DNA of 64,000 bases, from contig NAJO01000021.1 in NCBI GenBank assembly GCA_002077065.1, forward strand, positions 434,001 through 498,000, written 5' to 3'. The notes below the pieces were generated by a model, which saw only the letters and a list, made by a program, of their open reading frames with translations, did not search any database and was not told where the DNA came from. Below are positions 19,901 to 41,071 of this stretch, in pieces. The DNA comes from Cryoendolithus antarcticus. Lineage: Eukaryota > Ascomycota > Dothideomycetes > Cladosporiales > Cladosporiaceae. The position numbers and the translations under genes were made by a program. The stretch's first letter is position 1; every line of letters starts with the position of its first letter.

Positions 19901-22647
19901 AGGAATTGCTGAATCATGTCTGAGTCGCAGGAAACTCGAGGCGAGACGGAGCAGTACCAAGCACATGCCATGTGGGCGCACTGTTGCATCACTTCCACGA
20001 GATGTGCCTCCATCACCTCGCGCAAGCCTTTATTGTCGTTCATATGTAATATCGCAGCGATCAGCCTTTGCTTGAAGCCTGGGTTTGCGAGCTCCTGCCA
20101 TGCCTGCCATAATTTCTCCTGTAATGGCTGCCCAGCGTCGTTTAGCATCTTGATCAAAAGGTGCTTGCGCTGCTTCGTCTCAGCGAGCTGGTCGAAGTCC
20201 CACTCGTCAACATCGGAGGCGGTGGCCAGGAGAGGATTTCCAACAGGCGTGGGCTTGCTGCGCACAGAGGGAGTGCTGCTTTTCGATGCTCTCTTGAGCT
20301 TCTTGCTGGGCCCGACGATAGGCTTGGCCTTCCTTCTGGGTGTACCCTTGCTTGCTGAGCTGTCTGTCAACAATGTCAAGTCAATGACGCCAGTCTTCGT
20401 GCCGACCGGTGTACGTGGTGCATGACTATCGCTACTTCGTGGACGGTCTGTATCATCTGGAATCTCTTCTTTGACTCCCTCTGGAGAGAATGACGGTCGG
20501 TTCGGTAGCGTCCCATGTATGCCGCGAGCGTGCTTGAACGAGCGCGGTGGATCCGAGCTCTCGTTGATCTCGTCAGGTACTAGCTCGGGCGACGTGGAAT
20601 TTCGCTCAGACATGAGCGCATAGTCGGCACCATCTGCAGGCTTTTCGACCGTATCCGCTTCATGATTGAGACAGTCGCTGCGCAAAGCGTGCTCGGAGTC
20701 TGCAATGACGTCCTCATGCTGCTCGACGTCCTCATGCTGCTCATCGTCCGCGAGCACCACGTCTGACATGACAACGTTGTCCAGCTGCTCCTGATCATCT
20801 TCGAGTGCTCCGTCCGGCACCACAAAGTCGTCACCGCCAGCCACGATATGTGGCTCGTCTGGTTTCGCGGTGGTAGAGCGCTCATCTCCCGCTTGGGTTG
20901 ATGCAGCGATCTCTTCTGCGAGAGTCTGCGACAGCATGCTTACGGTACGCTGTGGCGAAAGCTGCATTCGATCGCCAGGTTCCAGCAGATTCAGTGCGTT
21001 CTGCAGGGAAGAGCCATGTGCACTCGCTTGCTGCGCTGCCGTACCGGGAATATGAGCTGACTTGACAGTTGAGCGGATTGGCCGCGCAGGTGCCTGGCTG
21101 GCGACCCAGATGGAGATCTTCCACAACTCCTTCTCGCGGTCATGTACAGTAGGCTCAAGCATCTCACACTGACGCCTAAGGCTTGCCGCACCTTCCCACT
21201 GCATCCCGACCATATCATTTCGATACTTCGTAAGTCGCTTGCCAAGCAGATCGCTCACTCGTTGAGCTCCACGGACGAGCTCATCACGGACAGTACGACT
21301 TCTCTTCATCTTCTTCCACACGAACCAAGCCTCTTTCGTGACAAGGGTCGGCAACTTATTGTCATGCCACTCTTGCCGGAAACGTTCAATGGCAGCGTCA
21401 ATGACCAGTGGGATGTCAATCTGCTCATGCTCTTGCTCACTCTCGACATCGGCAAGATCATCGCCACTCTCATCGTCGGTGTCTTGCTCCACGTCTGCCG
21501 CGACTGTAGTGGCATCGTCATCACCTTCTGGAAAGGCAGTGATATCGACATCACCATCGCGGTGCTTCCAGTTGAGAAGGAGATGGTCATATTCGCCACC
21601 GATTTGTGCAGCATCCTGCATGGAATATCCCAGGTCAATCGCATTGCTGTTGATCATGGCGTCAGACTCCCGTGTGATGATGATCCGGTCCTCGTCGTTG
21701 ATGTGCGCCGATGTCGCGGTGTCTGGAGCGTACTGTACGACGTAAGCGCATCGAGCAGCGTCAGGCATCAGACGCCCATGTCGATTGGTCTTGCTGGTGG
21801 CCAAGGCAACGCCAGCTTTCATGTCGTATCTGTACGGGTAGATGACCAGCGCGTCTCTCGACTTGCGGATGAAATGGCTTTCCTCAGGCGCGTGGAGAAA
21901 GCGTGACATGCAGCGATAAGCGTACTGCGTGAGCCCGCATTGTACGAGCGGATTGACATACTGGAAGTCATCGGACTCTTCATCTTCACCGTCGTCGATA
22001 AAATGCCTGTGCATGGGAGGCAAGAGACCAACAGCAGCGCCAAGCGCAGTATTACCAAAGAAAAGCTGGTCGATAGGCAGGCCTCTCGCAGGTAAATGGA
22101 TCTTAGAATCATCAATTTCGTATTTTGAAGTCGTGATGCCGTGATCAAGCACCGAATCATGATCAGTCACCAGTGCCGCCGAGTCTAAGCGACGCCGCTT
22201 GCGCGGACGACCATCATCGATCTTTTGCTCGCCATGCGTAAGATCATCGCCGACTATGGGTGCTACAATGCTGTGGGCAACTGTCGTGGTCTGGCGCTCG
22301 TTCATGTGGGCTGGTTGCGCAGTAGATTCAGGCGCAGGCCACTCGATTGGCTCGTCTTTGATCCTGTACCTGCATGAGCTGTCTTGAAGATGCCGGATAC
22401 ACCGCAAGTACGCAGTTCGCTCTCCTAAAGCCTTCACGCCACATTCCTCTCTGAGGAAGGACAGATCGACGGCAGTCAGCAGCGTGACGCCATCGACGCT
22501 GTTCTCAACGAATCTGGCAACGAGCTGCTCGAGTGAAGGAAACGTCGCGTGTGGTACATCGCGCCTGATATACTGCACAGCGTCGCCACGAAGGAAATCA
22601 GTAACGTCCTCGACAGTCCAATGCCACACATCTGGTGGACGCGTCAT
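16927..22647 (-). CDS. SNF2-family ATPase (RAD54/ATRX-like) with SAM-like N-terminus
   Basis: One uninterrupted frame of 1906 residues. The first in-frame ATG is at 22647; the frame is open further upstream but has no ATG there. Residues about 8-90 (VWHWTVEDVTDFLRG onward) resemble a SAM domain. Residues 90-1050 are mostly acidic or low complexity, with scattered helical blocks. The helicase core starts near residue 1090: motif I HTMGLGKTMQSIAML, motif II VVADEAHALKD (near 1260), then ALTGTPMSND. The C-terminal RecA lobe carries STKAGSQGLNIQCANRVI and QAIGRAYRLGQTK (near 1620). This is a chromatin-remodelling or recombination ATPase of the RAD54/ATRX branch, acting in the nucleus. Subfamily assignment is inference. 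A Pro/Ala/Gln-rich tail follows the core. Confidence 0.88.
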   Translation of the reverse strand: MTRPPDVWHWTVEDVTDFLRGDAVQYIRRDVPHATFPSLEQLVARFVENSVDGVTLLTAVDLSFLREECGVKALGERTAYLRCIRHLQDSSCRYRIKDEPIEWPAPESTAQPAHMNERQTTTVAHSIVAPIVGDDLTHGEQKIDDGRPRKRRRLDSAALVTDHDSVLDHGITTSKYEIDDSKIHLPARGLPIDQLFFGNTALGAAVGLLPPMHRHFIDDGEDEESDDFQYVNPLVQCGLTQYAYRCMSRFLHAPEESHFIRKSRDALVIYPYRYDMKAGVALATSKTNRHGRLMPDAARCAYVVQYAPDTATSAHINDEDRIIITRESDAMINSNAIDLGYSMQDAAQIGGEYDHLLLNWKHRDGDVDITAFPEGDDDATTVAADVEQDTDDESGDDLADVESEQEHEQIDIPLVIDAAIERFRQEWHDNKLPTLVTKEAWFVWKKMKRSRTVRDELVRGAQRVSDLLGKRLTKYRNDMVGMQWEGAASLRRQCEMLEPTVHDREKELWKISIWVASQAPARPIRSTVKSAHIPGTAAQQASAHGSSLQNALNLLEPGDRMQLSPQRTVSMLSQTLAEEIAASTQAGDERSTTAKPDEPHIVAGGDDFVVPDGALEDDQEQLDNVVMSDVVLADDEQHEDVEQHEDVIADSEHALRSDCLNHEADTVEKPADGADYALMSERNSTSPELVPDEINESSDPPRSFKHARGIHGTLPNRPSFSPEGVKEEIPDDTDRPRSSDSHAPRTPVGTKTGVIDLTLLTDSSASKGTPRRKAKPIVGPSKKLKRASKSSTPSVRSKPTPVGNPLLATASDVDEWDFDQLAETKQRKHLLIKMLNDAGQPLQEKLWQAWQELANPGFKQRLIAAILHMNDNKGLREVMEAHLVEVMQQCAHMACAWYCSVSPRVSCDSDMIQQFLNQDGQVYMFVIELRALLQKRTSKLFVHHKSATQAIPYNVDSDEDLQDEVDDIDEADEVQDAADTPSTRHGSAKKPKEVKQDEVAKTRRSNAQARSHLFTQVQLQSQLSSNPDMLSQMIAANPSQSRLAINPLHDAGDPPIFIHQAIAHSLKNYQHEGVRFLWREITARDSAGSQGAVLAHTMGLGKTMQSIAMLMAVDEASQSPTAKIRHQLPLRLQVKGDERRVFRRRLCFLILCPASLLRNWQKEIKQWAPQGFGGPSRVFVIETTVMRKKDELSYAEILKEWHRMGGLLLIGYSIFRALVMADDSDDSRKSGKASRVLNTPEHRDLVQTTLLAGTNLVVADEAHALKDDRIRLSQAADMLETHSRIALTGTPMSNDVNEIFSLISWVAPGYLGGKTEFQGRFANPIKAGLWQDSDAGERRRSKVQLTVLHREIAPKVHRADITVLRGSLKSKVEFVVTVELTGTQRAAYSKYIHAITGAAEGIEDVSQMRIFGWLDALFLLNNHPTAYRRRILESLDPKKRIAKIHKRRTTAIQALEEAADGNASESTVDSPAEIVAPDEPADEGSTLTGLGFDDVAIKALVEDLTDTLDPALSAKVSLLMRIIELSMACGDQLLLFSHKIPTLDYLEKLFAAGNIKCARIDGNVATAKRSDILKDFSEGKYSLLLISTKAGSQGLNIQCANRVILFDFSFNPSWEEQAIGRAYRLGQTKAVYVYRFIAGGTFETNLYNKTLFKTSLAQRVVDKRKPGRNAQRDLTKYLYHPRAVKHNDINVEHGKDKYVLDKIIDAQSARTEKDSSMDICAIDTMETLQQEAADEEDLNEEDMRRVEEEMQWRDENRTNRKLGPPEVMPRGLEHPPVAAAQTSVPSTAPAMIGPSRIDAAPIPATQAATSMPRAAIPATQVPRGMSSSSLQPQGFPGSHAWMNLPQMQNVQPHHFASGGRDVRNGTFQDGFAPMSVDPPARPPVATVRSSPDKGVHGLPTPRRGEQ

Positions 22648-23205
22648 CTTGCGCGTTAGTATGCTGTGTGGTGTTGAAGTGGGTATCGGTGTCTTGTCGA
22701 GGCGTGGTGTGGTGCTGTGTGGTGGTAGGAGGTGAGGTGATGTGTCGTAGATCTGGGTGTAGAAGGTGAAGTGCTTCTCGAGGTGAGCGGCTGATCCCGC
22801 ACAGGCACGTGAACCTAGTAGAAGGGCAAGTGCAAGTGCAAGTGCGTCGACACGTAGATGTGGCAGGAGCAACCGAGAGGATGCCTAGTGAGTGTGTGTA
22901 GCTGCGGCTCAAGATCTGCGGATTGCGCGCAACAAGAGCTTCTGCAAAACGCGACAGGTCAACACACGGTTATTGCAAGCTCGACGAGCAAGAAATGAGC
23001 TCTTTATACGCTTTCCAGTCGAACGAGAAGGCTCGATCGTACAGGCATCGACGTAGAGAAGTGCGGATGCGGTGGATCTGCCTTATGCTGATGCGCTGAC
23101 ACCTTGCCGGCCACCGACTATTCGTTGTAAAGGAGCTTACTGAATGCTGACCACGAATGCTGCCACACAAGCAAGCAGATCCTATGTAGCTCTTCACACG
23201 TCCCT
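22648..23205. other. Intergenic region upstream of the SNF2 gene
   Basis: Promoter and 5' leader of the SNF2 gene. The 22660-22750 part is G/T-rich on the plus strand. The SNF2 frame stays open to 22872 but lacks an ATG, so translation of this part is unlikely. No other gene was supported. Confidence 0.45.
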
Positions 23206-25470: not shown

Positions 25471-26042
25471 GCGATACAGGGCCGGCCGACGTTGCTACTG
25501 AGCAGGCGACGATACGAAGTACCCTTTATCATTGCCATAGACTGAGCCTAGCCCAAACACTATGATATAGTTACTCGAACAGGGGATCGTCACCTCCACT
25601 CGCCAAGCTTTGCTGACTACACATCTCAGCCCGGACGTCTCTACAGCTTTCCGGCTCTCCAATCCTTCCGAACCAACATCCATCATCGGATCATCCCACA
25701 CCTCCACGACCAGAGACACGACGCGTGGCCCACACAATCGTGACATGTCCTCAGTACCGAGTCCGACTGGGCGCACGTATCTTTGCACAGCGTCCTGCTA
25801 CTTTGCAGCTCCTTGCTCTGGGTTTGTAGTTGCCATGGCGCGGTGCACAGCCTTGTCAGAAGTCTAATATTTCGGGATCACAAACGGTGGCCGGAGAGCG
25901 GTGCGTGTTGCGCTGGGCATTGGGATTTGGGCTGGTTGGCACCGTTGGTTATCACGGCTGCTCGTCTCTTTCTCAAACACTGTGTTGCTTTCTTTACCGT
26001 GTTATCTTACCATATCTCCTTCTTTCGCGTCATACCCTCAGT
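25471..26042. other. Intergenic region before the b561 gene
   Basis: About 570 bp: the glutathione synthetase 3' UTR and the promoter and leader of the b561-type gene. A long frame reading into the next gene from 25783 is a by-product of unspliced translation and lacks family features. Confidence 0.45.
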
Positions 26043-26952
26043 ATGGCGATGTCAACATTCAGACAAAGCGCGGTTCTTCTTGCACTCGGTAAGACTCAAC
26101 ACCTCTGATCACAACCGAGCATCACTAACAAGTTCAGCAACCCTCGCAGCAGCTCAGTATGGCCCTCCAAGCGGCTCCGGCTACACAGGCGGCAATCCTT
26201 ACGCGAACGGCGGCGATGGTGACTCCGGAAGCTCTGGCTTCGGTGAGGGTGGTGCCGGGCGAGGTGGCTTCGGCGGCGCCCGCGGCAACGCGAGCACGAT
26301 CATAACCGCACACGCCGTCCTCGGCAGTCTCGCCTTCGTCCTCTTCTTTCCTCTAGGCGGGATTCTCATCCGCGTCGCCTCCTTCCCAAAACTCTGGCTC
26401 GCGCACGCAGGCCTACAAATCGTAGCCTGGATTTTCTACATCATCGCTTTCGGGATCGGGGTGTGGATGACGGTGAATTATTACACGTTCAAGAGCGCGC
26501 ATCCGATTATTGGAATTGTGCTGTTTGTGCTGTTGGCTTTCCAGCCGGCACTGGGATTCGTGCACCACATCATGTTCAAGAAGCACTCGAGGAGGGTGGT
26601 GTGGAGCTACGGACACATCTGGCTTGGGCGGATCATCATCCTTGGCGGCATCATCAACGGCGGACTCGGATTGCGACTGGCACAGCAAACGAGATTCATG
26701 ACGCCTAGCACGGGTGCGGTAGCCGGCTATACCGTTGCTGCTGCGATCATGGGCGGCGCATACCTGGCGAGCATCATATACGGCGAGAGGAAGCGGAGCA
26801 AGGCAGCCAAGGGGTTGGCAGCGCCGTACAAGGAGGTGTCGAGGAACGACTATGAGATGGGTGGGCCAGCAAATAATGCCACGCGCTCCGGCGCACCTGA
26901 GGGTGCGGGCGAGTACTACAAGCAGCAGAAGAGCGGGCAGACGTATGCTTGA
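26043..26952 (+). CDS. Cytochrome b561/FRRS1-type membrane protein
   Basis: Two exons, 26043-26088 and 26138-26952, give 286 residues. Exon 1 encodes most of a signal peptide (ending in ATLAAAQ after splicing). Residues 22-66 are a Gly/Ser-rich outer region. Five to six transmembrane helices follow, with conserved histidines H74, H105, H137, H158/H159 and H175 placed as in the b561 domain that binds two hemes. Family members pass electrons from cytosolic ascorbate or similar donors across a membrane. Unlike the CDH-cytochrome or DOMON fusions, no DOMON domain is present, so the outside partner must be another protein or small molecule (inference). The tail after the last helix is short and polar. 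The substrate is unknown. Confidence 0.85.
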
Positions 26953-27349
26953 GGGATTTGCAGGACTATCGTACTGTACATATACGCTTATACATGAGAC
27001 GACCTTCTCCTTACGCAGATCTGACCCACCGTGCTGCTGCATGGTACACATCCCAAAAGAGTGGGCAGAAGTATATCTCAGGGACAGCGGAAATCGTGAC
27101 ACACAAGATAGATAGCACCAATTTTTTGCCGCGAATGTTGCATCAAGAGAATGAGTCGGTGTAGGCAGCATCCACGCACCTTCGCTCGCAGCGCAGCGCA
27201 CGATCTGCACCATTTTGTAAACGTTGTCGTCCTGACACGATTAGCCGTTGTGAACGGCGCATGGTTGGAGGATGAGGAATGCACGAATTATGGATGATGA
27301 CCGCCAAGCGACTCCGGAACATGGAGATGATTGAATCCATCAAGCATAC
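26953..27349. other. Intergenic region between convergent genes
   Basis: About 400 bp with the 3' ends of the b561 gene and the HET-PHD-NFYB-C2H2 frame facing each other. No gene was supported. Confidence 0.45.
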
Positions 27350-30300
27350 CTATGGCCACGTCAGAATCTCCCTTCTTGTCGAACTAGCCTTTCCGGACAC
27401 ACTTCCATCGGCGTCCGACCTCCCACGTAGTGCTGACTCTTTCCCATGGGCTTGCCTTATATGATCTCGGTATTTGTCTTTCCGGATGAACCCGTGCTCG
27501 CCCTTGCGCTGACATCCAGGTTCTTCACAATCAATCATGGTCAAAATTGCGTCGCTGCTATGAGCTTGCGTGATATGTCGGCGCAAGTCTTTGGGAAACC
27601 CGAAGTTTGATGAGCATATAGAGCAAGGGAAGGTTGCCTGCTCTTGTGAGAGATTCAGCCTGGTCTTCTGCAATATGCATTCGTCCATATGATCATAGAA
27701 CGCCTGTGGACCAGCGAAAGTGGAGTGGCAGCCCGAGCATCTGTAACGGACGTGAGATATCGCACTGTCGCTCGAAGTGTCGGGCACGGTACTTGTTCGG
27801 GCAGACTTGGGATCCCGTTCCTGCGCACCATGCGTCGTGGCAAGATGTTCCTTGAGCTTCTTGAAACGGAGAAGCCGTGGATCTCTTGAGTCGTTGGCAC
27901 TACAGAACGGACAAGCTGAAAGGACAGGGTAGTGGCTCTCCATATGCCTTCTGAGATCTTTCGCTCTCGAGAAGCCTGTGCGATGGTATTGGCATGTATT
28001 GACAGGGCACACTTGTACATTGCGGGTCGGCATTGGTGCGCTTCGCGTGCGAAACCCACGCTCTCTGCTGTACGACAGCAACGGGTGGGGTGCAGTAGTA
28101 GACGACGAGAACTGAAGACTTCTCGACGGTGCACGGCTTTGCTGGTGAGACATTCCGAGATTCACAGGGGCTGATCTTGCAGACTGTATGCCAACATTTC
28201 GGTACGCTGCTACACCTCCCTGATATGCGCCTGTGTGTGCGCTAGTCTGCGCATTGATAAGCGTCGCATCTGCCGGCCAGAGCTGATGATCGGCGACTAA
28301 TGAGTTGGTAAGACACATGTCGGCGGGTTGTTCGCCAACCTGCTGCGCCAACTGGTCAAAGACCAATGGCTCCGGTGGGTTATGTTCGCGCGCTTGGCCA
28401 ATGTTCCACAGCGGAGTCAGTGAGTCATTGAGGTGGTCTACGGTGTAGAGACCTCCTGGATCAGCAAACCCTGTCTCTCCCCATAGATGGTGGAGCTCAT
28501 GCCCATCGAGTGTCGTAGCGTTGTTGGGTGTCCCGCGGTATGAATGATCCTCGAATGAAAAGTGGTCGGGGAAGGAGAGGTCTACTGTCCAATCCAGTTG
28601 GCCTGTCTGTTTGTTCTGCGCGCTACTCTCTTCTTGCCGGTCAAGTTCAGCCATCTTGTGTGCCGCCATCGGATGTGAAAAGCCATCAGCTTCACGCAGG
28701 AGAGGATGGTTATGACTATCGGGTACATGCGTCAATTTCTGGATCTTCGCAGCTCTGCCGTCGGCAACGTCCGGATCCTCTCCCGCACCGACATAGGTTT
28801 CTTGCGGCTCAAGCGCTGATGCTGCAGGCTTTGCATGAGGAGACTCAGCAGCGCTCCCAGCGTCCAAATTCTTGGATGTTTGGACCATGAAACCGGATAT
28901 GTATGTCCGAAGGAATGATTCATAACGTGGGAAGTCATGAGTTCCGAAGGCGTATAGAACATCTTCCCCGATGATAGCCTTGCGTTGGTCGAGCTTGCTC
29001 CTAGCCACCGCTGCTCTCGTCATGTACTTGATCAGCTCCGTGCCACACGTCTGCATCAGTTTTTGGCCGTCCTTTGCTACTTTGGCATCATCGGGCAGTG
29101 CGGCTTTCATCACGCGGGCGACATCGGCAACAGGCAAGTATGAGTCGTTCGCGTTGACTTCGAAATCATAACCAAGATCATAATCTGTCAGGTTGAAGTT
29201 CGGCGACGATTCGCGTGATGTCAGACGCGCGATGTCAGAGGCTTCGTGAGCTGCAGTATCGACATCACGCGACGAAGTGGACGAGAACTCGACGATCTCA
29301 TCCCGTTTGCGCTTGAGTGACTGCTTGTTACTGGGTGGCACAGCCACCTGTGGCGCGCTCGTAATCGTGGTTCTGCTACGCCGGTCCAGCAGCCGTCGGC
29401 GCTTGTACTGTGATCCAAGGTGACGCAACTCAGTATCATATGACAGTAGTTGATCCGCACCACTCTGCACAGAATAGATTCCGCTTGCGTACCCGACAGA
29501 TGCTTTTACCTTAAGTGGACCGGCTGCGTGCCCGCCGGTGCAACTGCATTCTCTATGCTGTGTGGGCATCGCATCTTGTGCGACTTCAGAAACTGAGACT
29601 GGAAGCCGCGCGGGAGAGCACTGCGTCAGGTCTTCGGCCGAGTCGGAGATGTGTTGTGTGTTCATATCTACACCACGCGATCTTTGGCGACGAGCTTGCT
29701 GGCGCTGACGTGCACCGTCTTTATCAATCTGTCGGGGATGACACGCGATGCAGCGGTGATATATGTTGTCTGGTAAGTCGCTTGTCTCAGCGAAGGGATA
29801 GTAGCAGATAACATGTTGCCACTTGTCACACAAATCGCAGGTGATCATGGTACCGTACTCGTCAAAGTTGCAGATGCAGGCCACTTCACCTGTCCCGTAC
29901 GAGAATGGTGTGATGGCCAGTGGTCGCTGAAAGCGCCTGCTCTCACTCATAGTGCTGAAGCTCGCACTCAAAGCATCCGCGATGTTGAAGCTAAGCAGTG
30001 ACTTCCAGGGCCGCTGAGCTTCCTCGAGGATAGTGCGTTCCAGGCGATACACAGCTCGCAATCCTTCCCCATATATCAGAGGCATATACACATCGAAGAT
30101 ACCAAGTAAGCAGTAAGCCTGATCCTCCAATTTAGTGGTACGGCGCCCTTGCTGCCATTTGATCTTCTCCTCGACGCTGAGTGCCCTACTTTTCTCGAAG
30201 TCTTGAAGGACAATTTCGGGTATTCCGGTGATCTGCGCGATTTCAGCATTGAGAAGTGGTCCAGCACCTCTACAGCTGGAAGTCGTGTCGCACTGCGAGC

Positions 30301-30805
30301 ACTTGTGTCCAATGACCTCCCAATTTTGGGTAAAGAAAATGACTGTCCTGGGCGCAAGGAGTTCCTGCAGAGTCCAACCTCGCTGGAACCACTCGCTCTC
30401 TGCGAAATCGCCCAATACCTCCACACGACCCCGTGTCGCACTGAAAGGCAGCACGTCGGCCAGATAGGCATGGCACTCGATGGAGTCGTGATACCAGCGA
30501 AACATTGAATTGATTGACTCTTGCACCTCAGCTGCGCTGGTGGTATCGATGCAGGCCGTATCGATCCATAGCCAATCAGAAACGGTTGAGTCGTTCAAGT
30601 TCTGAAGGATGTCGTTGGTATGCCTGACTTGCTCACAAAAGCCTTTGATCTTGGCCCAGCCCACACTGGCTGTGTTTCTCTGCTTCCTCACATCCTTATA
30701 GGTGGCCTCATCATTCGACCAGCGATGGGACGTGATGACGTAAGGCTCAGTATTGTCACCGTGGAAGTCTCGAAATCTGTAGTCGTGAACATTGAGCAAC
30801 CGCAT
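27350..30805 (-). CDS. HET - PHD - NF-YB-like - C2H2 multidomain protein
   Basis: A single uninterrupted frame of 1151 residues from ATG 30805. Residues 1-260 are a HET domain: MRLLNVHDYRF start, PYVITSHRW, WIDTACIDTT, MFRWYHDS, FQRGWTLQELLAP, then LEDQAYCLLGIFDVYMPLIY. Residues 308-356 form a PHD finger with C310, C312, C323, C326, H331, C334, C352 and C355. Basic stretches at 468 and 498 (KRKR) could be nuclear signals. Residues 552-637 are an NF-YB/HAP3-like histone fold: YLPVADVARVMKAALPDDAK, then RKAIIGEDVLYAF. About five C2H2-type fingers lie from residue 928 to 1120. HET domains act in heterokaryon incompatibility and related cell death, while the rest suggests chromatin binding. An internal ATG at 29950 (residue 286, just before the PHD finger) would make a separate product without HET. 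The combination is not one I know. Confidence 0.8.
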   Translation of the reverse strand: MRLLNVHDYRFRDFHGDNTEPYVITSHRWSNDEATYKDVRKQRNTASVGWAKIKGFCEQVRHTNDILQNLNDSTVSDWLWIDTACIDTTSAAEVQESINSMFRWYHDSIECHAYLADVLPFSATRGRVEVLGDFAESEWFQRGWTLQELLAPRTVIFFTQNWEVIGHKCSQCDTTSSCRGAGPLLNAEIAQITGIPEIVLQDFEKSRALSVEEKIKWQQGRRTTKLEDQAYCLLGIFDVYMPLIYGEGLRAVYRLERTILEEAQRPWKSLLSFNIADALSASFSTMSESRRFQRPLAITPFSYGTGEVACICNFDEYGTMITCDLCDKWQHVICYYPFAETSDLPDNIYHRCIACHPRQIDKDGARQRQQARRQRSRGVDMNTQHISDSAEDLTQCSPARLPVSVSEVAQDAMPTQHRECSCTGGHAAGPLKVKASVGYASGIYSVQSGADQLLSYDTELRHLGSQYKRRRLLDRRSRTTITSAPQVAVPPSNKQSLKRKRDEIVEFSSTSSRDVDTAAHEASDIARLTSRESSPNFNLTDYDLGYDFEVNANDSYLPVADVARVMKAALPDDAKVAKDGQKLMQTCGTELIKYMTRAAVARSKLDQRKAIIGEDVLYAFGTHDFPRYESFLRTYISGFMVQTSKNLDAGSAAESPHAKPAASALEPQETYVGAGEDPDVADGRAAKIQKLTHVPDSHNHPLLREADGFSHPMAAHKMAELDRQEESSAQNKQTGQLDWTVDLSFPDHFSFEDHSYRGTPNNATTLDGHELHHLWGETGFADPGGLYTVDHLNDSLTPLWNIGQAREHNPPEPLVFDQLAQQVGEQPADMCLTNSLVADHQLWPADATLINAQTSAHTGAYQGGVAAYRNVGIQSARSAPVNLGMSHQQSRAPSRSLQFSSSTTAPHPLLSYSRERGFRTRSAPMPTRNVQVCPVNTCQYHRTGFSRAKDLRRHMESHYPVLSACPFCSANDSRDPRLLRFKKLKEHLATTHGAQERDPKSARTSTVPDTSSDSAISHVRYRCSGCHSTFAGPQAFYDHMDECILQKTRLNLSQEQATFPCSICSSNFGFPKDLRRHITQAHSSDAILTMIDCEEPGCQRKGEHGFIRKDKYRDHIRQAHGKESALRGRSDADGSVSGKASSTRREILTWP

Positions 30806-31186
30806 CTTCAAGCCTCGCTTGCATCGTCGTCAACACTGTGTATTTCAACGTCAGAGGATTTACCGGTCAAGAAGGTCGTCATCTTGTTTAAATCTCCAAG
30901 GAAGAGGCCATACGGGCAGCCAGGAAGCCATCAGCTGAGGTGGCTTGCAGCGAGGCAGTGCATATGCATGCCCATCACTACATAGAATTGAGGCTCGAAT
31001 CGCCTCGCGCTGCAAGGATGAGATAAGCACGTGATAGGTAAGGTGCTCGGAAGACGGCAAGTTTGAGCCGAGACTAGCGGCTCCGGGAAGCTCACTCTCT
31101 GAGGATTCGCGCAGCGCGTCGGGGGTGCCCTGATCGATCGCAAACACTCAAACATATCGAGTGCGACAAATACACGAGTTGCAACC
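30806..31186. promoter_or_regulatory. Divergent promoter, HET-PHD gene / CBP80
   Basis: This 381-bp region lies between divergent start codons of the HET-PHD-NFYB-C2H2 gene (minus) and the cap-binding gene (plus). Core elements could not be assigned. The housekeeping neighbour suggests an open promoter. Confidence 0.4.
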
Positions 31187-33971
31187 ATGGCGGACGTTGA
31201 TCGCCGGCGCGACGACAGAAATGGCGGGGCGGGGTTCCGCGGAGGGCGCAATGATCGCAGAAAGAGAGGAAGAGGTAATGACCTCCCAGCGCGAGTGAAT
31301 TAATCAGTTCACTGACTCAATGGTACACAGAGGACGATGAGTACGAACACGGCAACTTCCGCAACCAGCGCGCCCGACAGGAAGTCCCACCAGGAACTCG
31401 CATCCGCCGCGTGCTGGTCGAAGCCGCCGAGGATGTCCAAGGCCGTGAGCCGGTGGATGTTAAGGGGGCGCTGTCCAATGTTGGCAAGCTTGCAGCCGAA
31501 AATTGGGGGGACGAGTATGTGAGGGAGGTGTTCGTCGCTGTGGCGCTCAAAGTGTGCGTAAATTCAAGTCATTGTACGCTATACATCGGCTGACCTTCCC
31601 ACAGCGTTGCTGAACAGCCATTGAAAATCCCCTTCATGGCAGCGGCAGTGCTCTATGCGAATGAGTACAAGTCGGAAGCTGCTGCAGAGGTGGTAGCAGC
31701 GGCAACATCGCAGCTCCAAGAAGCCTTGCAAGATGGTGCATGGCGAACGGTTAAGCTCCTGCTCCGATTCATTGCCTGTCTTAGCCCGCTTTTCGAAGAA
31801 GACGGCATTGTGCCTGTACTGAACGAGTTGTTCGATCGGGCAGTCGATCTGCAGACAGCTTCCTCCGAGGATGTATGTTGAAGTGCCACATGTTCAAGTT
31901 GCACTCGACTGACAATTTACCAGGCCATCGGCATCGAGCTCGTGAAGATCATTTTACTTACGATACCCTACCTTATTGCAGCGAACGACAGCAATGCAAT
32001 CAAAGAGCAAGTTGCCGAACTACTTGAAAAGACCGAGATCGTAGCAACAGCTCCGCACAGCCTTGATGTGCTGGTCAACCCCTACCCAGCGATCGGTGGC
32101 GACGACGAGAGCCGACCCATGGCATTTGGCGGCGTCATCTCACTCATTCAACGGCAACTGCAAGAGGAAACGAACAAAGGCTGGCCTCTGAGCTGTATAC
32201 CGAGGGCATTCGATCCTGTGAAGCGCGAGGCGGAAGCCAATGGAGATACCAACGGCAATGAGGAGCATGCATCATCCCAGAAGCACGCATTCCCGGTCGT
32301 CGAGGTTCCGTCGCCAGTCTACGCGAACTCCGGTGAGGTCTTCCCAGAAGCGTTCTTCTCCCTCTACGCAGATCAGGACGTCGAGTCTGTGCCACCGACG
32401 ACGCACATTGCATGCTCGTTGATACGTGATGCTGTTGTGGACACAGTGAACATACTGGACTTTAATCGGAACGCAACATCGAAGTACCTGAATGAGCTCG
32501 ACAACTTCTGGACTCCCGGCACTTTCACTCGCCGTGAGACAGGCTTCGACAGGCTCAAGGAGTATACTGGTGGAGTATCAACCTGGAAGCCCGAGGATGT
32601 TGGGATCGACGCACTCTTCTCGCAGATCTTCAAGCTCCCGACACCACAGCATCGACTGATCTGCTACCACTCGGTCATCACCGAGGTCTGTAAGCTCGCG
32701 CCACAGGCCATCGCCCCCAGTCTTGGCAGAGCTATTCGCTTCATTTACCGCTCTATCGACCAGCTCGACCTCGAGCTCCAATATAGGTTCATGGACTGGT
32801 TCGCACATCATCTCAGCAACTTTGAATTCCGCTGGAAATGGCAAGAGTGGTATGTACCGTCCCTCATCAAGCAACGATGGTTACTGACAAGCGTAGGATC
32901 GCCGACATCCCACTTCCCGAGATCCACCCAAGGAGAGCCTTCATCAATGGCGCACTCGACAAGGAGATTCGCCTCTCTTTCGCCAAGCGCATCCGCGAGA
33001 CCCTGCCAGATCCCTTCCAAGCTCTAGTACCAGCCAGTAAAGAGAAGGACGTTCCCGACTTCAAGTACGCAGATGACAAGATGCCCTATGCCAGTGAAGC
33101 CCGTGCTCTCCTCAAGCTTCTCAAGGAAAAGGCATCCGAAGAGCAGATCCAAGCCATTCTGGACGACGTCCGTGACCAGGCCACCAGCCACGGCGTGCCT
33201 GATCCACTGGTCCCAAGCACAGACGTCTACATGACTTGCATCCTCAACGTCGGCTCGAAGAGCATGTCTCACGTGATCTCTAACATCGATCGCTTGAAAG
33301 ACAAGCTCTCAGCCCTCGCCACGCAATCCGAAGCTGCCCGCCGGCAAATCATTTCGAGTGTAGTCGACTTCTGGAGCCTGCACCCTGGCAACGCAGCGAA
33401 TATCGTCGACAAGCTACTGAATTACACGATCATCACGCCCATGTCTGTCATCGAGTGGGCGTTGCACGAGCGCATGGACCGTGGCAGAGCTTTGGCTTCG
33501 GCGCAGATGTACGAGCTCGTCTCTCACACTGTGGCCAAGGTCTCCGCGCGCGTGCGCCAAGTCCTGCAACAGCGAGCAAACACCTCACTCCCCTTCGACC
33601 AGCGCCAGGTCATCGACGCCGTGTTGCCTAGAGAGCGACAGACGCTGCGAGACCTGTACGCTACGATCGAGGACGCCGTAGCGAGCGTCGCGAATGGCAG
33701 CCAGGACGAGATGATGGAGAGATATGAGGGTGAGGAAGAGGAGAGAGCCATCATCATGCAGTGGGGTGAGAGGTGGGCTCGAGTCTGGAGGCGGAAGGCA
33801 GCGGTCGAAGAGGCTGTCGTCGGGGAGGCAGCTGTAGGAGAGCTGATTGAGCCGGAGCCAGTGCCAGAGCCGGAGCAAGAGCCGGTGGCCGATATGAATG
33901 ATGCTCTCGATGCTTTCGAGGCAGAGGCTGGCGCGGGAGGGGCCATGGATATTATTGATGAGGTGTCCTAA
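31187..33971 (+). CDS. CBC1: Nuclear cap-binding protein, large subunit (CBP80)
   Basis: Five exons: 31187-31274, 31331-31553, 31605-31872, 31924-32849 and 32897-33971, giving 859 residues. All junctions keep phase. Examples are VVAEQPLKIPFMAAAVLYAN in the first MIF4G repeat and WIADIPLPEIHPRRAFINGA in the central repeat, both typical of the family. The Arg/Gly-rich N-terminus (RRRDDRNGG..RKRGR) holds the nuclear localisation signal. Three helical MIF4G-like repeats follow. With CBP20 the protein binds the 7-methylguanosine cap of RNA polymerase II transcripts and guides splicing, 3' processing and export. The C-terminal end is acidic and Glu/Pro-rich (EPEPVPEPEQEP). Length is normal. Confidence 0.93.
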
Positions 33972-35032
33972 AGACCTCTACAGGACGATAGTGCGTTCCG
34001 TTAGTTGTGGAAGGCATTTCGCTGTACTGTGCTGCTGCACTATCTCTGACGTTGGATGAGCAGACAGCTGCAGGCGTGTATGCAATTGTACCATCACCTA
34101 TATGTTGACCGCATGTTTGGCAACATCATACAACGCTTCCACGGAGTATTTTCCGCGAACCGGACTACCTAGGATCCTGTGCTTCTAACATCTTGGCCAA
34201 GGCATCTCAGTGTTGCAACTCTACGTCCGGCAGAGCCTCGACATGGTCAGAACAAGTAGCGTCTGGGTCCTCTTCTCTTCATCGCGTTGAATGCTCGGCT
34301 CGCTCTAGTAGATATGCTTGAAGGAGCAGAGGAAGAGCTTCCTACCTCACAGTTCTAAGCAAACCGGTACTTTTGCGGCACAGACTCTATGAAAGCGGTG
34401 CATCACAAGCTGTGGGGGATGGAGACTTGCTGAGGTGCCCTCGAAACTCAACACACAGGTATCGTAGGAAATGCTTTCTTTCGCTTCAATCGGCAAGCCA
34501 GTCGCACCAAGCTCTCTAAAGCCCAGTCCAGCAATGCCCATTGGGTAGTCTATCATATTCTCATACTAGCAACATTCATCCTCCCCGTGCATAAGCTGTG
34601 CACTCCAAAAGATTTTGCCATCGCCCGCTCGCTAGCAGATGGGAATCGTGCTTTTCGCGGCACCCCAGTCCAGCCGTGGATTCGCGCCGTGAACGCCGAT
34701 GCCCAAATGACCACTGTGAGTCTACGCGAGCTTCCTGCCATGCAGAGCTTTCCCCTCTCAAATGTACTGGCCGGTAGCAAGAATACTCCCTCTTCTTGTT
34801 CTCCTCTCTGCCGTGACGCTCCCAATGAGATACCCTCTATGCCATGCATCAAGCTCTTCGCCACGTGCACCCGTTCGTCCGGATCATGTCCATGTACATG
34901 CCAGGCCCGAATGGCTTGTTGTGGTATGCTTTGATCCAATGCGCATTGCCATGCGTGAATGTCTTCATGATGTGTCGTTGCACTCGTGGTGTCAGAGTGA
35001 GAGATGATGCTTGAAGTTCTTGTTTTCCACTC
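33972..35032. other. Intergenic region between convergent genes
   Basis: About 1.06 kb between the CBP80 and GSK3 stop codons, longer than needed for two 3' UTRs. Overlapping open frames exist on both strands near 34553-34939 (115-128 codons), but neither resembles a known family and they lie opposite each other, so neither is called. No repeat was recognised. Confidence 0.45.
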
Positions 35033-36547
35033 TCAATCCAGCCGTGCAAGCATCTGCTCCCTTGGCATCGGCACCAGATTGTCGATGTCGAGGCCTTTCG
35101 CTGCGAGAATCGGCTTCATGTGAGCGGGAACCAGTTGGTGATTGAGGTGAGGTGCTATGGACAGTTCTGTGGATTCTCGTGTCAGTAATCGCTCGGAAGT
35201 GCGGAGGTGGCCATGCGACGTACCATGGTGCGTGAAGTCGAACAGTGTCGGCAGATCCTTGGGTGGTGCGTTCGGGTGACGCGAGTCGGCCAACTTCGTG
35301 CTCGGATCGCGGAGCTCGTCGAAGAAAGGATGCACCATCGCGTCGATCGCTGACAGGCGCTGAGTTGGCGTGTACTCGAGCAGCTTCGAAATGAGATCGA
35401 TAGCATTGGGATCCGCCTTACGGAAGACCTGCTTACATGTCAGTAGCGCACTTCACGAAAATCCCATCATAACGCAATACATACCTTGCCAAATGGGTGC
35501 GGCTTGATCTGCGGGAACTTGTGCTCCATGTAATTCGGGTTCATCGTGCGGATTTGGTCGCGTGTCGGCGTTCCCAGCACTTTGATGATCTCCACAAGCT
35601 GGTCGATACCCGACTCTCCAGGGAACAATGGTTGCCCGAGCATAAGCTCTGCCATGACACAGCCGGTTGACCAGACGTCTGTTACAAGTCAGCTCAATAC
35701 CTCCATTACTCTGACCAGCCGCACATACCGATTTTTGTAGTGTAGTTCGTGGCGCCAAAGATCAACTCTGGCGCCCGGTAATATCTCGAGCAGATATACG
35801 ACACGTTCGGCTCATTCTCCACCAGTATCTTCGCGCTCCCGAAATCGCACAACTTCAATATCCCGCTCGCCGGATCCATCAGCAAGTTCTGCGGCTTGAT
35901 ATCCCGATGGCAGATACCCTGCGAGTGGATATATGCAAGTGAGCGGAACAGCTGGTAGATGTACAGCTTCACCTCGAGGATGGGCATGGTGGTTTTGAGT
36001 TTGTTGAAGTGCCTGCTCGCGCGGTAGACGGTCTCCGGCACAAACTCCAGCACCAGGTTCAGGTATACCTCGTCCTTCTGAGCGGCCATTAGAGCTGTTT
36101 GTACACCCATGAGGTTGTCTGTATCGCGTACCCGGTCTCCGTTGGAGTAGTAGAATGCTTTGAGCTCGACGATGTTGGGATGTCGGACAATGCGCATGAT
36201 TTGGAGTTCTCGGTTCTGCCCTTGTTGTCAGCACGTGAGCCGAGTACTGCGGAATATGACATGCACATACCTTGAAGCGCTTGTCCTGGAGCACTCGCTT
36301 GATGGCTGCATCTTCGCCTGATGGAGAGAGCTTGGTCTGGAAGACCACACCAAAGGAGCCGTTTCCCACTATCTTGCACTGCGTATACTGCATCTCCTTG
36401 GTCTCGCCCGTCAGACCGTCTTGCACCTTCTCGCGGATGACCTCTGCAAGTCATATTAGCATACTTGTACAGCACACATGCGATCAGTACGCAACACTCA
36501 CCACCCATCCTCAAGCTCTGGAAGGCCGACGGCCGGCTTTGCGACAT
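35033..36547 (-). CDS. GSK3: Glycogen synthase kinase 3 (shaggy-type Ser/Thr kinase)
   Basis: Six exons on the minus strand: 36547-36502, 36443-36271, 36215-35729, 35678-35485, 35428-35224 and 35166-35033, giving 412 residues. The kinase motifs are complete: [13 protein letters not shown] loop, [29 protein letters not shown] catalytic loop, CDFGSAK, then [19 protein letters not shown] with the activating tyrosine. [20 protein letters not shown] follows. Splicing gives [15 protein letters not shown] at the C-terminal lobe. GSK3 kinases phosphorylate primed substrates in glycogen, cell-wall, stress and developmental signalling. The fifth intron (35167-35223) is 57 bp and has no stop, so retention would insert 19 residues in frame. 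The family's short, mostly kinase-only layout is kept. Confidence 0.95.
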
Positions 36548-38959
36548 GGCGATGTGAAGGGCGTAGTGCTAGCTGAGCGCGGTAGAGTATGGCGGCGTAT
36601 TTCGGCAGTCCGCGGTCGCAATGATGTCGTCCGTGGTGGGCGGATGGAAGGGTATGTCAGGTGATCCTGGTTGATGTGCGCAGGTGATGTAGGAGTTGCA
36701 GGCCTGGTGTAGTGCAAGCACAGCAGTGACTACGCCTCGAGGTAGGTCGAGTGCGGTGCGGCGGGTGGAAGAGGCTGAGAGCGGCTACGAACTGCAGGCC
36801 GGCGCGAACAACAGATTGGATTCTGGTAGAGTGAATTTGGCGCAGACTTTCGGTCACAAAGACAACAGTGATGATGGTGGTAGTCAGGATGTGGTATGGC
36901 ACGGCAGGCAATATTGATGTATCGTGACAGCAAGATGCAGCATGAGCAGTAGTGTGCAGGCACGGCCAGAGATGAGGGGCTGCCCTCACGTGCTACTGTA
37001 CTGCTGTTGACGCTGCGTGCACTGACCAGAGAAGACCTGTGACCACCACCAACCCAGACCCATCCTCCCCTCGAGGAACCCACAAACCCACCCAGAAATG
37101 ACAGCAACGTTAGGCTAGTGCCGGGAGGTAACGAAACAACCGCAATATGACGTCCCCATGCTTGTCGCAGTCTAAGCTCCCACACGCCCGTCCATCAACA
37201 AATTCAATGCCCATGCACGCCGCGTGTGTTGTTGATGCGATGATGGCTGAGCATGCGAGCCTTCACGTGCGCATCTCACACAACTCGCATCAGATCCAAG
37301 GCAGTACTCGATGCAGTAGCCTAGCTGCAGCAAGCACCAGCTGACGCATTGTGGGGCCTGCGGCGGACATTATTGGAAAAAGGCTCAGGGCGAGAGGTCA
37401 CCTGCGTGTCGAAAATACCAGTCCTTGGCGGATTGTCCGCAGCAGCTGGGTGAGATGAAACACGCACCACCTCAAACCACCAACACGCACTCCTCCTGCT
37501 GATCCTCCGCTGTAACCATGCACTCCTCGTGCGCAACACTCACATCTCTGCAACATCCCGAGAAGTGAAGTCTGCAGACTTTTCCATCTGTCTAATCTCT
37601 CATTGGCCCGCCTGTCGTTCATGTGCATTTGCAGACTAGGGCCGGTACCTCGTGACCGCCCACATGTCTCCCTGCCCCACCGCCGCAAGCGCGCTCGGTC
37701 TGCGTACTCCATCAATTTCTGCCCGCCCTGCCCTCAATCGCAATCTCAACCCCGCGATCCCCGCTGCCATTGGCCCACCTCACCCTCCGTCACGCACAAT
37801 CAAGCTATCGTGTTTTGACGGAGTGACAGGCACATGGCTATAATTCGCCAGCGCAAGGCACAACTTGCTGATCTGGCCCAGAGCAGTGGCGCCATCTAAG
37901 CGAACGCCTCTTGAGGAGATGCATGTACAATCGTACTGCTCGCTCGAGCTCTTGCCTGCGCCCGGGGAGCAGAGCGAACGCCAGCGGCTCGTTGATTTCA
38001 TGCACGTAAACGTCGAGCTCCGGCCCAACCGGCTTGCGGACCAGATCATGCACGCGCTGCCAAAGCGGCCTGCTGCAGGTACCTCGCTCGAAGTTTTGAC
38101 GAGTTTGGCATGGTGGGATCTCTGAGACGAGCCCAATGGTGCGGTCGTTGGATGCTCGGGAATTTTGGATGTGTGTGCCGACATGAACATCCACGCATTG
38201 GGAAGTAGCATGATAGCTTTGCGTTCGATCGGCTATGGTGATGACTGCTACTCATGGGATCTGCCTTACTAGAGACGCGAGTCCGCCTCGGTATGTTCAA
38301 CCGTCCCCAACTGCCAAGATGCACAAAATATGAGGCGAGACAACGCCCGATTTCGTCCTTACAACCCTAGCGCGAGGAACAAGGCAAACGTTGAGGATCG
38401 CCATGCATGATCGACGCATTGAAGCAACTTCACTTCATCACGCGGTCCTATGCGCTCCCGCCAGAATATAGGTAGAGTCGGATTTGGAGTGTACGTGCAA
38501 AGAAAGCAGGGCAGGCACGACCAACAGCGCGAAATCCACCGCAGCGAAGCCTGACCTCAACAGCATCAGCGGTGAGAACTAGATGTACGAGACTTGGGAC
38601 ACGTGCATCATCGTATGAAGACTCCTTGTGCGTTGACAAGGCTGACGTCGAGACTCGCGTGGGACATGGCGGATGCTTGTCTCTCAACCGCAGGTGAAAC
38701 ACTATCACGACTTCAAGGCAGGCTGTACAGTGTCAGCCTTGTGTCTCCAGACGTCGAGAGCCGCGACGTGTCACTAATGGAGCATAATGTGAAGGTGGTC
38801 AGCTCATAGGGTGCGGCGTATGCCGATCGTCAGTCGCTAATCGTACACTATTCGTACACTATTCTGTACAGCCCAGCTCCATGCGTATGATCGTTATTGA
38901 CCTTCCCGTACGCCTTTTGCAACGCCATCGCAATGCATCAACACCGAGCCAGTAAGCTT
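36548..38959. other. Long region without a supported gene
   Basis: About 2.4 kb between GSK3 and MTO1. The GSK3 5' leader and promoter lie at the left. The best open frames sit opposite each other at 37780-38211: a minus frame of 143 codons and a plus frame of up to 86 codons ending at 38125, whose first ATG is 37919 (MHVQSYCSLELLPAPGEQSE). Composition of both is unremarkable and neither matches a family I know. I see no transposon ends, tRNA or tandem repeat. Confidence 0.45.
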
Positions 38960-41071
38960 CTAGGCCACTGCCAAACCCTCCTCGCCGATCCCCATGCCCT
39001 CCACCGTCTCCTTTACCATACTTTCCTTCTCCCGCCTTCGTCCTATGCCCTTGACGTACACAGCTACTCTCAGCGCTCCCGTGGGTGTGACTCCTTCCAC
39101 TCGCCTCGCCATACCTACACTCTCTGGCCGAACTCTTTCGAGTGCTCGCTTCTCCTCGAAGCTTAGTCCGCTGATGCTTTCGTAATCAAGATCGCCTGGT
39201 AGTTTCAGCTCTTCATCACGCACCATGGAAGCAGCGGTGCTGGTCTGCTGTGTGATATATGGCGCGTACGTTCCTTCAATGTCCATCCGAGCCAGTAAGG
39301 CGGGTGAGTATGAAGCTAGGGCTGGGATGAGAGGCAGTAGCGTTGATGTAGTGATCGAGGAGGAGGCGAGAAGGTCAAAGGCATTGCGTCGGTGGGTGTC
39401 GTTCCGGACTGGAAGGCCTTTGGCAATCCAGGACTGTGAGCCACTTGAGTGTGATTCGAGAAGCTCACGCAGTGAGTCCAGCTGAGCTTTGGTATCACTG
39501 AAGTGTCGCCAGCGGCTTGAGGAGATGACTCCTGCGGCGTGGCCTTTTGCTGTGAGGCGGAGATCGGCGTTGTCAGCACGCGCAGACATGCGGTACTCAG
39601 ATCTCGAGGTGAACATCCTGTACGGCTCCGAGACGCCTTTAGTCACGAGATCATCGACCATGATGCCTATATAGCTGTCCGCGCGTGTCATCGTGAAAGG
39701 TTCGCGACCTACAGCGGCGTTACCAGCATTTATTCCTGCGAGTATACCCTGTGCAGCAGCTTCTTCGTAGCCTGTTGTGCCGTTAATCTGCCCTGCCAAG
39801 AAAAGCCCTGAGATGGCTTTTGTCTCGAGTGTCGACTTCAGCCCACGAGGATCGATGTAGTCGTACTCGACACCGTACCCCGGCTGTACCACCACCGCAT
39901 TCTCCAGACCTTCCATGGCACGGACGGCGGCTTCTTGCGCAGCCGGCGGCACTGTCATGGAGATACCGTTAGGGTAGACGAGGTCTGAGTCGAAGCCTTC
40001 CGGCTCCAGCCAAACGAGGTGCTGGGTCTTCGTATGGAAGCGGACGACTTTGCTCTCCAGTGAAGGGCAGTATCGAGGTCCCTTGACAGTCTCACGAATG
40101 TGAATGCTCTTGTCGAGATTTTCACGGATGATGTCGTGCACTGCTGGGTTCGTGTGCGTGCTGTAGCAATGCAACTGCTTCTCCACTGCTACCCGATCGT
40201 TGAGGTAGGAGAACGGCGTTGGTGGGTCGTCCCCTGGTTGAACTTGCAGCTTCAAGTAGTCTATAGTCTTCTTGTCTATTCGAGGAGGAGTGCCGGTCTT
40301 GAGGCGGCCGAGCTGAAAGCCTGCTTCCCGAAGAGACTTGGAAAGCCCGAAGGTAGCTGCTTCGCCCATGCGGCCTGAGGGGAAGACTTCAAGACCTATG
40401 TGGATCTCACCGCCGAGGAAGGTGCCTGTTGTGATCACTACACTGTTTGCATCAATCACTTCGCCAGATTCTAACCTCACCCCAGTGACCTTGCCATGCC
40501 GACCCTCCACTGTTGACTCTGGGGATCGATCCACAACGATGTCTGCCACCTTTCCCTCCTTGCCAGTGAGATTGGAATACGAGAGTATCTCCTCTGACAT
40601 GTGCTTCTTGTAAAGCTTGCGATCAATCTGTGCTCGAGGTCCCCACACTGCAGGTCCCTTCTTGCGATTGAGCATCCTGAATTGTACGCCAGCCTTGTCT
40701 GTGATCTTTCCCACAAGCCCGTCCAACGCATCGATCTCTCGCATCATCGTTCCCTTGCCGATGCCGCCCAACGAAGGGTTACAGCTGCACACTCCAAGGT
40801 TCTCCGTGGAGGGCGTAATGAGCATTGCTCGTGCGCCTGCTCGCGCAGCTGCGGCAGAAGCCTCGCAGCCAGCATGACCGCCACCGATGACTATCACATC
40901 TACTGGAGGCCTGTCGGATTGTTAGCATAGACTACGTTTCATTGCATTCGGGGTTTGGTACCGAGCATCTACAGGAAGGTCTGTCACAGTCGCAAAGGTG
41001 CGCCTGAGAACCGCAGCAGACCTCACGCGAGGCGCATGGCCCCAGAGAGCATGCGCTCGTATGGCAAACAT
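38960..41071 (-). CDS. MTO1: Mitochondrial tRNA uridine-5-carboxymethylaminomethyl enzyme (MnmG/GidA family)
   Basis: Two exons on the minus strand, 41071-40962 and 40910-38960, give 686 residues. Exon 1 encodes an Arg/Ala-rich mitochondrial presequence ([20 protein letters not shown]). The junction restores [20 protein letters not shown], the FAD-binding GxGxxG start of the family. Further signatures are [25 protein letters not shown] and [19 protein letters not shown]. With MSS1 (MnmE) it modifies the wobble uridine of several mitochondrial tRNAs, using FAD and folate. The C-terminal helical domain, which binds the partner, is complete. Without the first exon the frame would begin at an internal Met inside the FAD site, so the spliced model is preferred. 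Confidence 0.95.

Follow-up and report, generated by a model that had tools for sequence, protein, structure and literature searches.

A single gene of the fungus Cryoendolithus antarcticus joins a HET domain to a PHD finger, an NF-YB-like histone fold and C2H2-type fingers, and its counterpart at the same locus carries another module in place of the histone fold. The gene is located on the minus strand of a 64,000-nucleotide stretch of contig NAJO01000021.1, referred to here as the window. For the genes examined, the 47-Mb genome holds two versions, with pairs for HapC, SET3, CBP80 and several HET genes, and the second version of the present locus is on C67. In the reading preferred here, which is given a probability of about 45%, the protein is a TIR-like HET executioner with exchangeable baits related to the regulators of its own genome, encoded at a het-like locus. 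The activity of the protein and any incompatibility are predictions. The observations beneath them are the single frame, the domain homologies, the association of HET with PHD in four proteins, the exchange of the middle module at one locus, the bounded divergence and an inversion. The gene and its parts are as follows.

27350..30805, minus strand: whole gene, a single open frame of 1151 codons plus stop, with a HET-PHD order matched in homologues
30011..30805, minus strand: HET domain, residues ~1–265 (Pfam HET, homologues, AlphaFold, weak NDT/TIR-like structural matches)
30359..30379, minus strand: GWTLQEL, residues 143–149, with E148, candidate for the TIR alphaC glutamate position
29888..30010, minus strand: HET-PHD linker, residues 266–306, with a conserved RPLAI stretch (alignment to relatives)
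29678..29887, minus strand: PHD finger of Set3/MLL5 type, residues 307–376 (Pfam, structure-sequence alignment, zinc ligands)
29150..29677, minus strand: linker, residues 377–552, predicted disordered, predicted local distance difference test (pLDDT) mostly 30–50
28886..29149, minus strand: NF-YB/HapC-type histone fold, residues 553–640 (Pfam, HapC match, comparison with the genome's own HapC)
29012..29017, minus strand: residues 597–598 (R, A), at the NF-YB S97 and E98 positions (alignment)
28010..28885, minus strand: linker, residues 641–932, predicted disordered from the model
27446..28009, minus strand: about five C2H2-type fingers, residues 933–1120 (Cys/His spacing, genome matches)

The frame runs from an ATG at 30805 to a stop at 27352–27350 with zero internal stops, and the plus strand of 27350–30805 has stops throughout. 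In 40 simulated windows of matched dinucleotide composition, the longest stop-free frame had a median of 234 codons and a maximum of 314. The uninterrupted frame of 1151 codons claimed in a preliminary description of this DNA is therefore confirmed; the strand, missing from that claim, is minus. The chain of HET, PHD, NF-YB and C2H2 modules described there is likewise borne out, HET and NF-YB being over the Pfam cut-offs, the PHD resting on alignment and ligands, and the fingers on spacing.

The sequences compared (n = 122) are the window protein (P0001), the C67 copy (P0122) and the 120 relatives listed out of 136. A WQH-type PHD signature is present in four of these, all with HET: P0001, P0122, P0002 and P0003. 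Two of the four come from the Cryoendolithus genome itself. P0002 is from Oleoguttula sp. CCFEE 5521 (Teratosphaeriaceae), the source of the nearest named protein, and P0003 has the source label lgn and is taken here for a metagenome contig. The RPLAI...GEVAC linker is conserved in P0001, P0002 and P0003 by alignment and also in P0122 by its printed sequence. Since the same HET-linker-PHD order is found in the C67 copy, Oleoguttula P0002 and P0003, HET and PHD belong to one chain.

It is extremely improbable that two genes or a chance read-through have been joined here, with HET and the remainder on separate transcripts. Most HET relatives among the 120 show no PHD, as this would have it, and codon usage gives no in-frame signal for the PHD segment in the window gene (−0.041, against 0.051 in a shifted frame). 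Set against this, HET and PHD share a single frame in three more sequences, of which two do not come from the Cryoendolithus genome, and the codon-usage score in the given frame is positive in six of seven segments of the window gene and in all seven of the C67 copy, where the reverse strand of the PHD segment scores higher than the given frame (0.206 against 0.114). The given frame of the window gene also beats both shifted frames in six of the seven segments. A division into two genes near 29950 is ruled out by the homologues that join HET, linker and PHD (the C67 copy, P0002 and P0003), and the suspicion that homologues might always keep HET apart from the remainder was not borne out. On the sequence evidence, HET through fingers are almost certainly one gene.

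The module between PHD and fingers differs between the copies. The order in the C67 protein, and likewise in Oleoguttula P0002, is HET, PHD, acyl carrier, C2H2. The acyl-carrier PP-binding domain (PF00550) is matched between PHD and fingers with 49.1 bits in C67 and 48.5 bits in Oleoguttula, keeps the GIES serine (serine 500 in C67) and resembles the carriers of CurA and of the aflatoxin polyketide synthase. Protein identity between window and C67 is 209/272 in HET, 50/104 in linker plus PHD and 171/557 in the rest; between C67 and Oleoguttula the figures are 269/272, 100/104 and 422/558. HET is more fixed than the tail, because HET identities exceed tail identities in both comparisons. This suggests a stable HET-PHD core with a middle module that has been exchanged between copies (NF-YB or acyl carrier). 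By sequence comparison, at least two modules are interchangeable in the middle position, NF-YB among them. The NF-YB part of the preliminary description stands for the window, but is not a fixed part of the architecture, being replaced by the acyl carrier in the C67 and Oleoguttula copies. HET-PHD recurs in three other proteins, and the full HET-PHD-NF-YB chain in no other of the 122 sequences compared. P0003 has a GCN4-like basic region at its C-terminal end (E 0.002, a weak match); bZIP_2 is matched by the whole protein at E 0.009, below the cut-off, and the 65-residue C-terminal piece passes no Pfam model.

The protein search with the linker-PHD part gave no match, and is uninformative on rarity in that the true relative P0002 was also missed. 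No paper joining HET to a PHD, NF-YB or acyl-carrier domain was found in the titles, abstract starts and term counts of the literature searched, among the matches listed.

Other combinations occur among the relatives. P0038, P0057 and P0072 (source label lgn) have HET and an acyl carrier with the serine kept, seemingly acquired apart from the HET-PHD type. As in the C67 copy, a phosphopantetheine domain is part of the HET chain; they differ in having the acyl carrier near residues 520–600, PF26640 besides, and no PHD at E 0.01. Zn2Cys6 clusters accompany HET in P0016, P0027 and P0085, and by eye those of P0016 stand within the HET domain. P0012 has a weak PHD match (17.5 bits, below the cut-off) at residues 462–509, far from HET and by eye of another PHD type.

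The PHD finger is slightly below the Pfam cut-off (21.7 bits against 24), yet aligns to yeast SET3 with E 7.7e-11 and to MLL5 with E 2.3e-10 (5tdr and 2lv9, the PHD structures of yeast SET3 and human MLL5). All eight C4HC3 ligands are present (C310, C312, C323, C326, H331, C334, C352 and C355). The cage tryptophan and the CxPRxxD stretch after the finger are also kept. Trp141 is a cage residue of the MLL5 PHD (PMC3793974, in part), and by our own mapping to MLL5 residues the conserved cage positions are W329, M320 and an acid. With its C4HC3 ligands and aromatic-cage Trp, the sequence has the features of a Set3-type PHD. C4HC3, WQH and the CxPRxxD tail are common to it and to SET3/MLL5, from which the window protein differs in lacking a SET domain. 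The nearest PHD in the genome outside the HET locus is that of SET3 (C70/C61), with 26 of 70 positions identical. A Set3-type PHD could dock the protein on H3K4-methylated chromatin.

The NF-YB-like fold matches Pfam CBFD_NFYB_HMF (PF00808) with 47.6 bits (cut-off 21.4) and Aspergillus nidulans HapC (4g91_B) with E 1.9e-17. The class assignment is to HapC (65.7 bits) rather than to DNA polymerase epsilon subunit D (24.9). Of the positions common to human NF-YB and Aspergillus HapC (n = 65), 31 are kept. E90 and E98 of NF-YB are important for NF-YA binding (PMC3422339, in part). With the numbering anchored by E90 in VSEF, E98 falls in TSE; E90 is retained, whereas E98 has become Ala, S97 Arg and N61 D, so that the pair for NF-YA contact is incomplete. 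The nearest NF-YB in the genome is its HapC (C134/C126), identical at 31 of 78 aligned positions, of which the module in the window is a degenerate relative by sequence. The histone fold of the genome's own HapC is apparently split by an intron; the copy in the HET protein has none. The histone fold should still form, but formation of a HAP trimer is doubtful from these residues. Altered NF-YA contacts with a retained fold would be the appearance expected of a bait or of a dimer-only subunit. In comparison with the HapC/NF-YB subunit of the CCAAT-binding complex (4g91), the histone-fold core is shared; the window fold differs in its reduced set of shared positions, the loss of E98, the lack of an intron and its place within a chain of 1151 amino acids.

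PF00808 is absent from the domain lists of all 120 relatives listed out of 136, two of these lists being incomplete. The protein search with the NF-YB part gave no match and is uninformative on rarity. A role as HAP-complex decoy is possible for the window module, since the fold core is kept while the NF-YA-contact positions are altered, but it does not account for the copies that lack NF-YB. As the sole explanation it is ruled out by these relatives.

The same residues bear on the prospect that the protein regulates transcription while bound to chromatin, with HET turned into a protein-interaction module and NF-YB joining HapE (NF-YC) in the role of an alternative or dominant-negative subunit of the HAP complex. 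The retained PHD ligands and cage positions (MLL5 residues compared, PMC3793974, in part) and the retained histone-fold core would suit such a regulator, and a dimer-only NF-YB would still be able to bind NF-YC. This is nevertheless very unlikely, given the loss of E98, the changes of S97 to R and N61 to D, the relatives without NF-YB, and the fact that HET is the most strongly conserved part.

From the spacing of the Cys and His positions we read about five C2H2-type fingers, of which one is C2HC; the Pfam C2H2 models give weak matches, below their cut-offs. Between window and C67 the finger region (residues 930–1129) has 37% protein identity. The nearest finger protein of the same genome is C2H2-type by its Cys/His pattern and is found on C24 (with a match at C84); it matches 39 of 114 positions of the window protein and 72 of 160 of the C67 copy. 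An open frame on C24 (L053, C24:481494) has C2H2 fingers followed by a bHLH-like stretch, by eye. The linkers at residues 377–552 and 641–932 are probably disordered according to the AlphaFold model, which for the first is weak evidence, the model being equally unsure over the NF-YB part. Neither PHD nor NF-YB is shown with confidence in the full-chain model. Folded alone, the NF-YB stretch has a mean pLDDT of 44 with helices in histone-fold order, too weak for a structure search.

The HET domain is over the Pfam cut-off (27.6 bits against 22.5). In the AlphaFold model of residues 1–260, 25 of 26 blocks of ten have a pLDDT of at least 86, and the remaining block has 74. Invariant columns in 41 aligned sequences include S26, H27, W29 and E148, the last kept in 41/41, and W[TCS]LxE[LF] is present in 121 of the 122 sequences. 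E148 in GWTLQEL is a candidate counterpart of the TIR alphaC glutamate. Foldseek with the whole-chain model gave nothing at E 0.001. There is no NACHT or NB-ARC match in the window protein up to E 1 (Pfam), which rules out that it is a fungal NLR; among the other HET frames scanned in this genome, 4 of 18 have NACHT.

The two copies of the locus were compared over the following features.

25783..26952, plus strand: cytochrome b561-like gene, collinear left flank (Pfam Cytochrom_B561 21.7 bits, slightly below the cut-off of 23)
30806..31187, no strand: interval separating the start codons of HET and CBP80 (30826–31047 unaligned to C67, 31048–31187 aligned)
31188..33971, plus strand: CBP80-like cap-binding gene, inverted with the HET gene relative to C67 (MIF4G_like_2)
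34462..40357, no strand: collinear flank right of the inversion, with 86% DNA identity to C67

The window region, on C64, is collinear with C67:683001–706000. A glutathione synthase gene and the b561-like gene are found to the left of the locus, and a gene read here as kinase-like, GidA and a SUN-domain gene to the right. Between these flanks is one inverted block, the head-to-head CBP80 and HET pair. The inversion relative to C67 (L026, L027) lies within 26957–34461 of the window, and its breakpoints fall between genes, where there is hardly any alignment.

DNA identity per 500 bp is 74–96% in the aligned flanks and 71–73% in the 5' kilobase of the HET gene. In blastn against C67 there was no match for the remaining 2.4 kb of the HET gene, nor for 30826–31047 upstream. 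The CBP80 proteins are 92–95% identical over two compared pieces, a similarity close to that of other flanks, and no co-diverging partner gene was found next door. Silent divergence was measured by 4-fold sites, NG86 having given no usable dS for HET; the finger-protein pair L050/L051 was left out, as the key stretch is absent in L051. The 4-fold-site difference between the HET domains of window and C67 is 0.667 (0.589–0.756; 90 sites), compared with 0.583–0.804 in unrelated HET comparisons (n = 4), 0.194–0.533 in flanking gene pieces (n = 7) and 0.244 in the SET3 pair. The HET silent difference exceeds that of the flank pieces and is as large as between unrelated HET genes, which suggests an earlier split for the two HET forms than for the flanks. 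The C67 HET is 98.9% identical to that of Oleoguttula and the window HET 77.6%; the C67 form is thus close to Oleoguttula, and the window form was not seen among the 120 relatives listed out of 136. Divergence between the same-locus copies is bounded, with uneven flanks.

A mechanism can be proposed for a HET executioner with baits. By analogy with other HET proteins, the N-terminal TIR-like HET would execute cell death. The C-terminal half would be a chain of modules akin to nuclear regulators of the cell itself, namely a Set3-type PHD, an NF-YB-like fold and C2H2 fingers. The PHD could place the protein on H3K4-methylated chromatin, and the exchangeable middle module would be the bait on this nuclear or chromatin-associated sensor. 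A parasite product, or a non-matching partner after hyphal fusion, may bind or modify the bait, and HET would then be released. We infer in this way a nuclear location, a bait role, a cell-death output and allorecognition for the window protein. As expected of integrated decoys, host homologues of the modules occur in the same genome (its own HapC, SET3 and C2H2-type protein). It is unlikely, if conceivable, that this is an immune or self-recognition locus that is idiomorphic in the full sense, with a common HET-PHD core for execution and chromatin binding and wholly different baits (CCAAT-complex histone fold versus acyl carrier); specificity would then change by whole-module swaps, not point changes, with the sensor on chromatin.

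Several points weigh against a HET executioner with baits at a het-like locus. The structural matches of HET to NDT/TIR are weak and mixed with unrelated folds. Such modules were found in none of the 18 other HET frames of the genome that were scanned, some of them incomplete (18 loci from 42 match rows, which include the window and two for the C67 copy), and NF-YB in this slot is seen in one sequence only. Incompatibility genes make up 5 of 125 HET genes in Podospora, so that most HET genes are not of this kind (PMC10197012, in part). Silent divergence in the flanks is uneven, and the 4-fold interval of GidA (0.471–0.605) overlaps that of HET. Over window 20435–44307 compared with C67, it is 0.19 for the SUN-domain gene, 0.24–0.28 just left of the locus, 0.45 at the start of the open reading frame 16927–22872, 0.34–0.49 for CBP80 and 0.53 for GidA. 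Nor is HET alone in its high protein divergence, because the first 500 codons of the frame 16927–22872, read here as SNF2-like, have only 68% protein identity (456 codons). Divergent HET pairs are moreover usual in this genome. The five control pairs, being those that appear among the 18 small HET loci, have HET identities of 91.7, 78.8, 70.0, 69.9 and 62.9% and 4-fold differences of 0.295–0.636; with four of five below 80%, the 77.1% between window and C67 is not exceptional. The present pair appears to be set apart by the whole-domain exchange together with the inversion, the control pairs having been compared for domains by Pfam only.

The locus data also bear on a classical het (allorecognition) locus, in which the window and C67 copies would be old incompatible alleles in a hybrid or diploid-like genome, with the tail setting specificity. 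A divergent gene within collinear flanks, the inversion, the near-saturated silent divergence and the contrasting closeness of the two HET copies to Oleoguttula would all fit, in a pattern like those of PMC10890737 and PMC11138114. It is considered rather unlikely in this strict form, in that both forms are in one genome, where a strong incompatibility pair would not be tolerated unless silenced or suppressed, and other HET pairs of the genome are similarly divergent in HET. The copies might instead be a pair of ancient paralogues rather than alleles, one or the other having been lost from each subgenome. Silent divergence at the level of unrelated HET genes and the different middle modules agree with this. 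In both copies, however, HET and CBP80 stand head to head with the same genes on either side, and paralogues would need two losses and, in addition, an inversion that took in only CBP80, where the allelic case needs one inversion, which makes this decidedly unlikely.

The executioner with baits has likenesses to known systems. In het-B of Podospora, HET is joined to a divergent C-terminal specificity domain, the alleles are 69% identical and there is trans-species polymorphism (PMC10890737, in part). The Bh protein of Podospora anserina het-B resembles the window protein in its single exon, N-terminal HET, non-NLR nature and highly divergent copies, and its specificity in the C-terminal domain is counted as a further likeness, the role of the tail here being assigned by analogy. 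According to the same source, one domain set (HET, HAD and a lectin fold) is common to the Bh alleles, and their partner gene next door, Bp, is divergent too. Here, in contrast, the two copies differ in the fold of the middle domain, and the neighbour CBP80 is not unusually divergent. The het loci of Aspergillus fumigatus are divergent single genes in similar flanks, and the hetB alleles differ in length and run in opposite directions (PMC11138114), inverted as here. In A. fumigatus segregation was mapped and three genes were tested by expression (PMC11138114, in part), whereas the present locus is known from sequence alone. The integrated decoys of plant NLRs and the non-canonical domains of fungal NLRs likewise combine an immune-type effector domain with relatives of cellular proteins, including C-terminal zinc fingers (PMC12258605, in part), but the window protein differs in having no NACHT or NB-ARC match (Pfam).

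In filamentous fungi few domains are as common as HET, and the way in which it causes cell death is unknown (PMC10890737, in part). A HET protein with recognisable exchangeable modules offers concrete partners, namely NF-YC/HapE, H3K4me and phosphopantetheine transferase. If the reading is true, the bait idea would be extended from NLRs to HET proteins without NACHT, and fungal cell-death control would be placed on chromatin.

Further features were seen in the genome and in the window. A minisatellite with a period of ~99 bp is found at L029 1045–2371 and L030 1482–2318 (shifted alignments), beside the HET-NACHT pair C133/C94. HET genes are clustered at C139:823936–884324 (L013–L015, L017 and L019), with an in-frame TAG in two matches. 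Within the window, an Agd3-like polysaccharide deacetylase with CBM87 is encoded at 58346–59734, where the frame stops before the end of the profile and a second frame follows from 59828. A STE3-type pheromone receptor gene is present at 61517–63049 (Pfam 269.9 bits).

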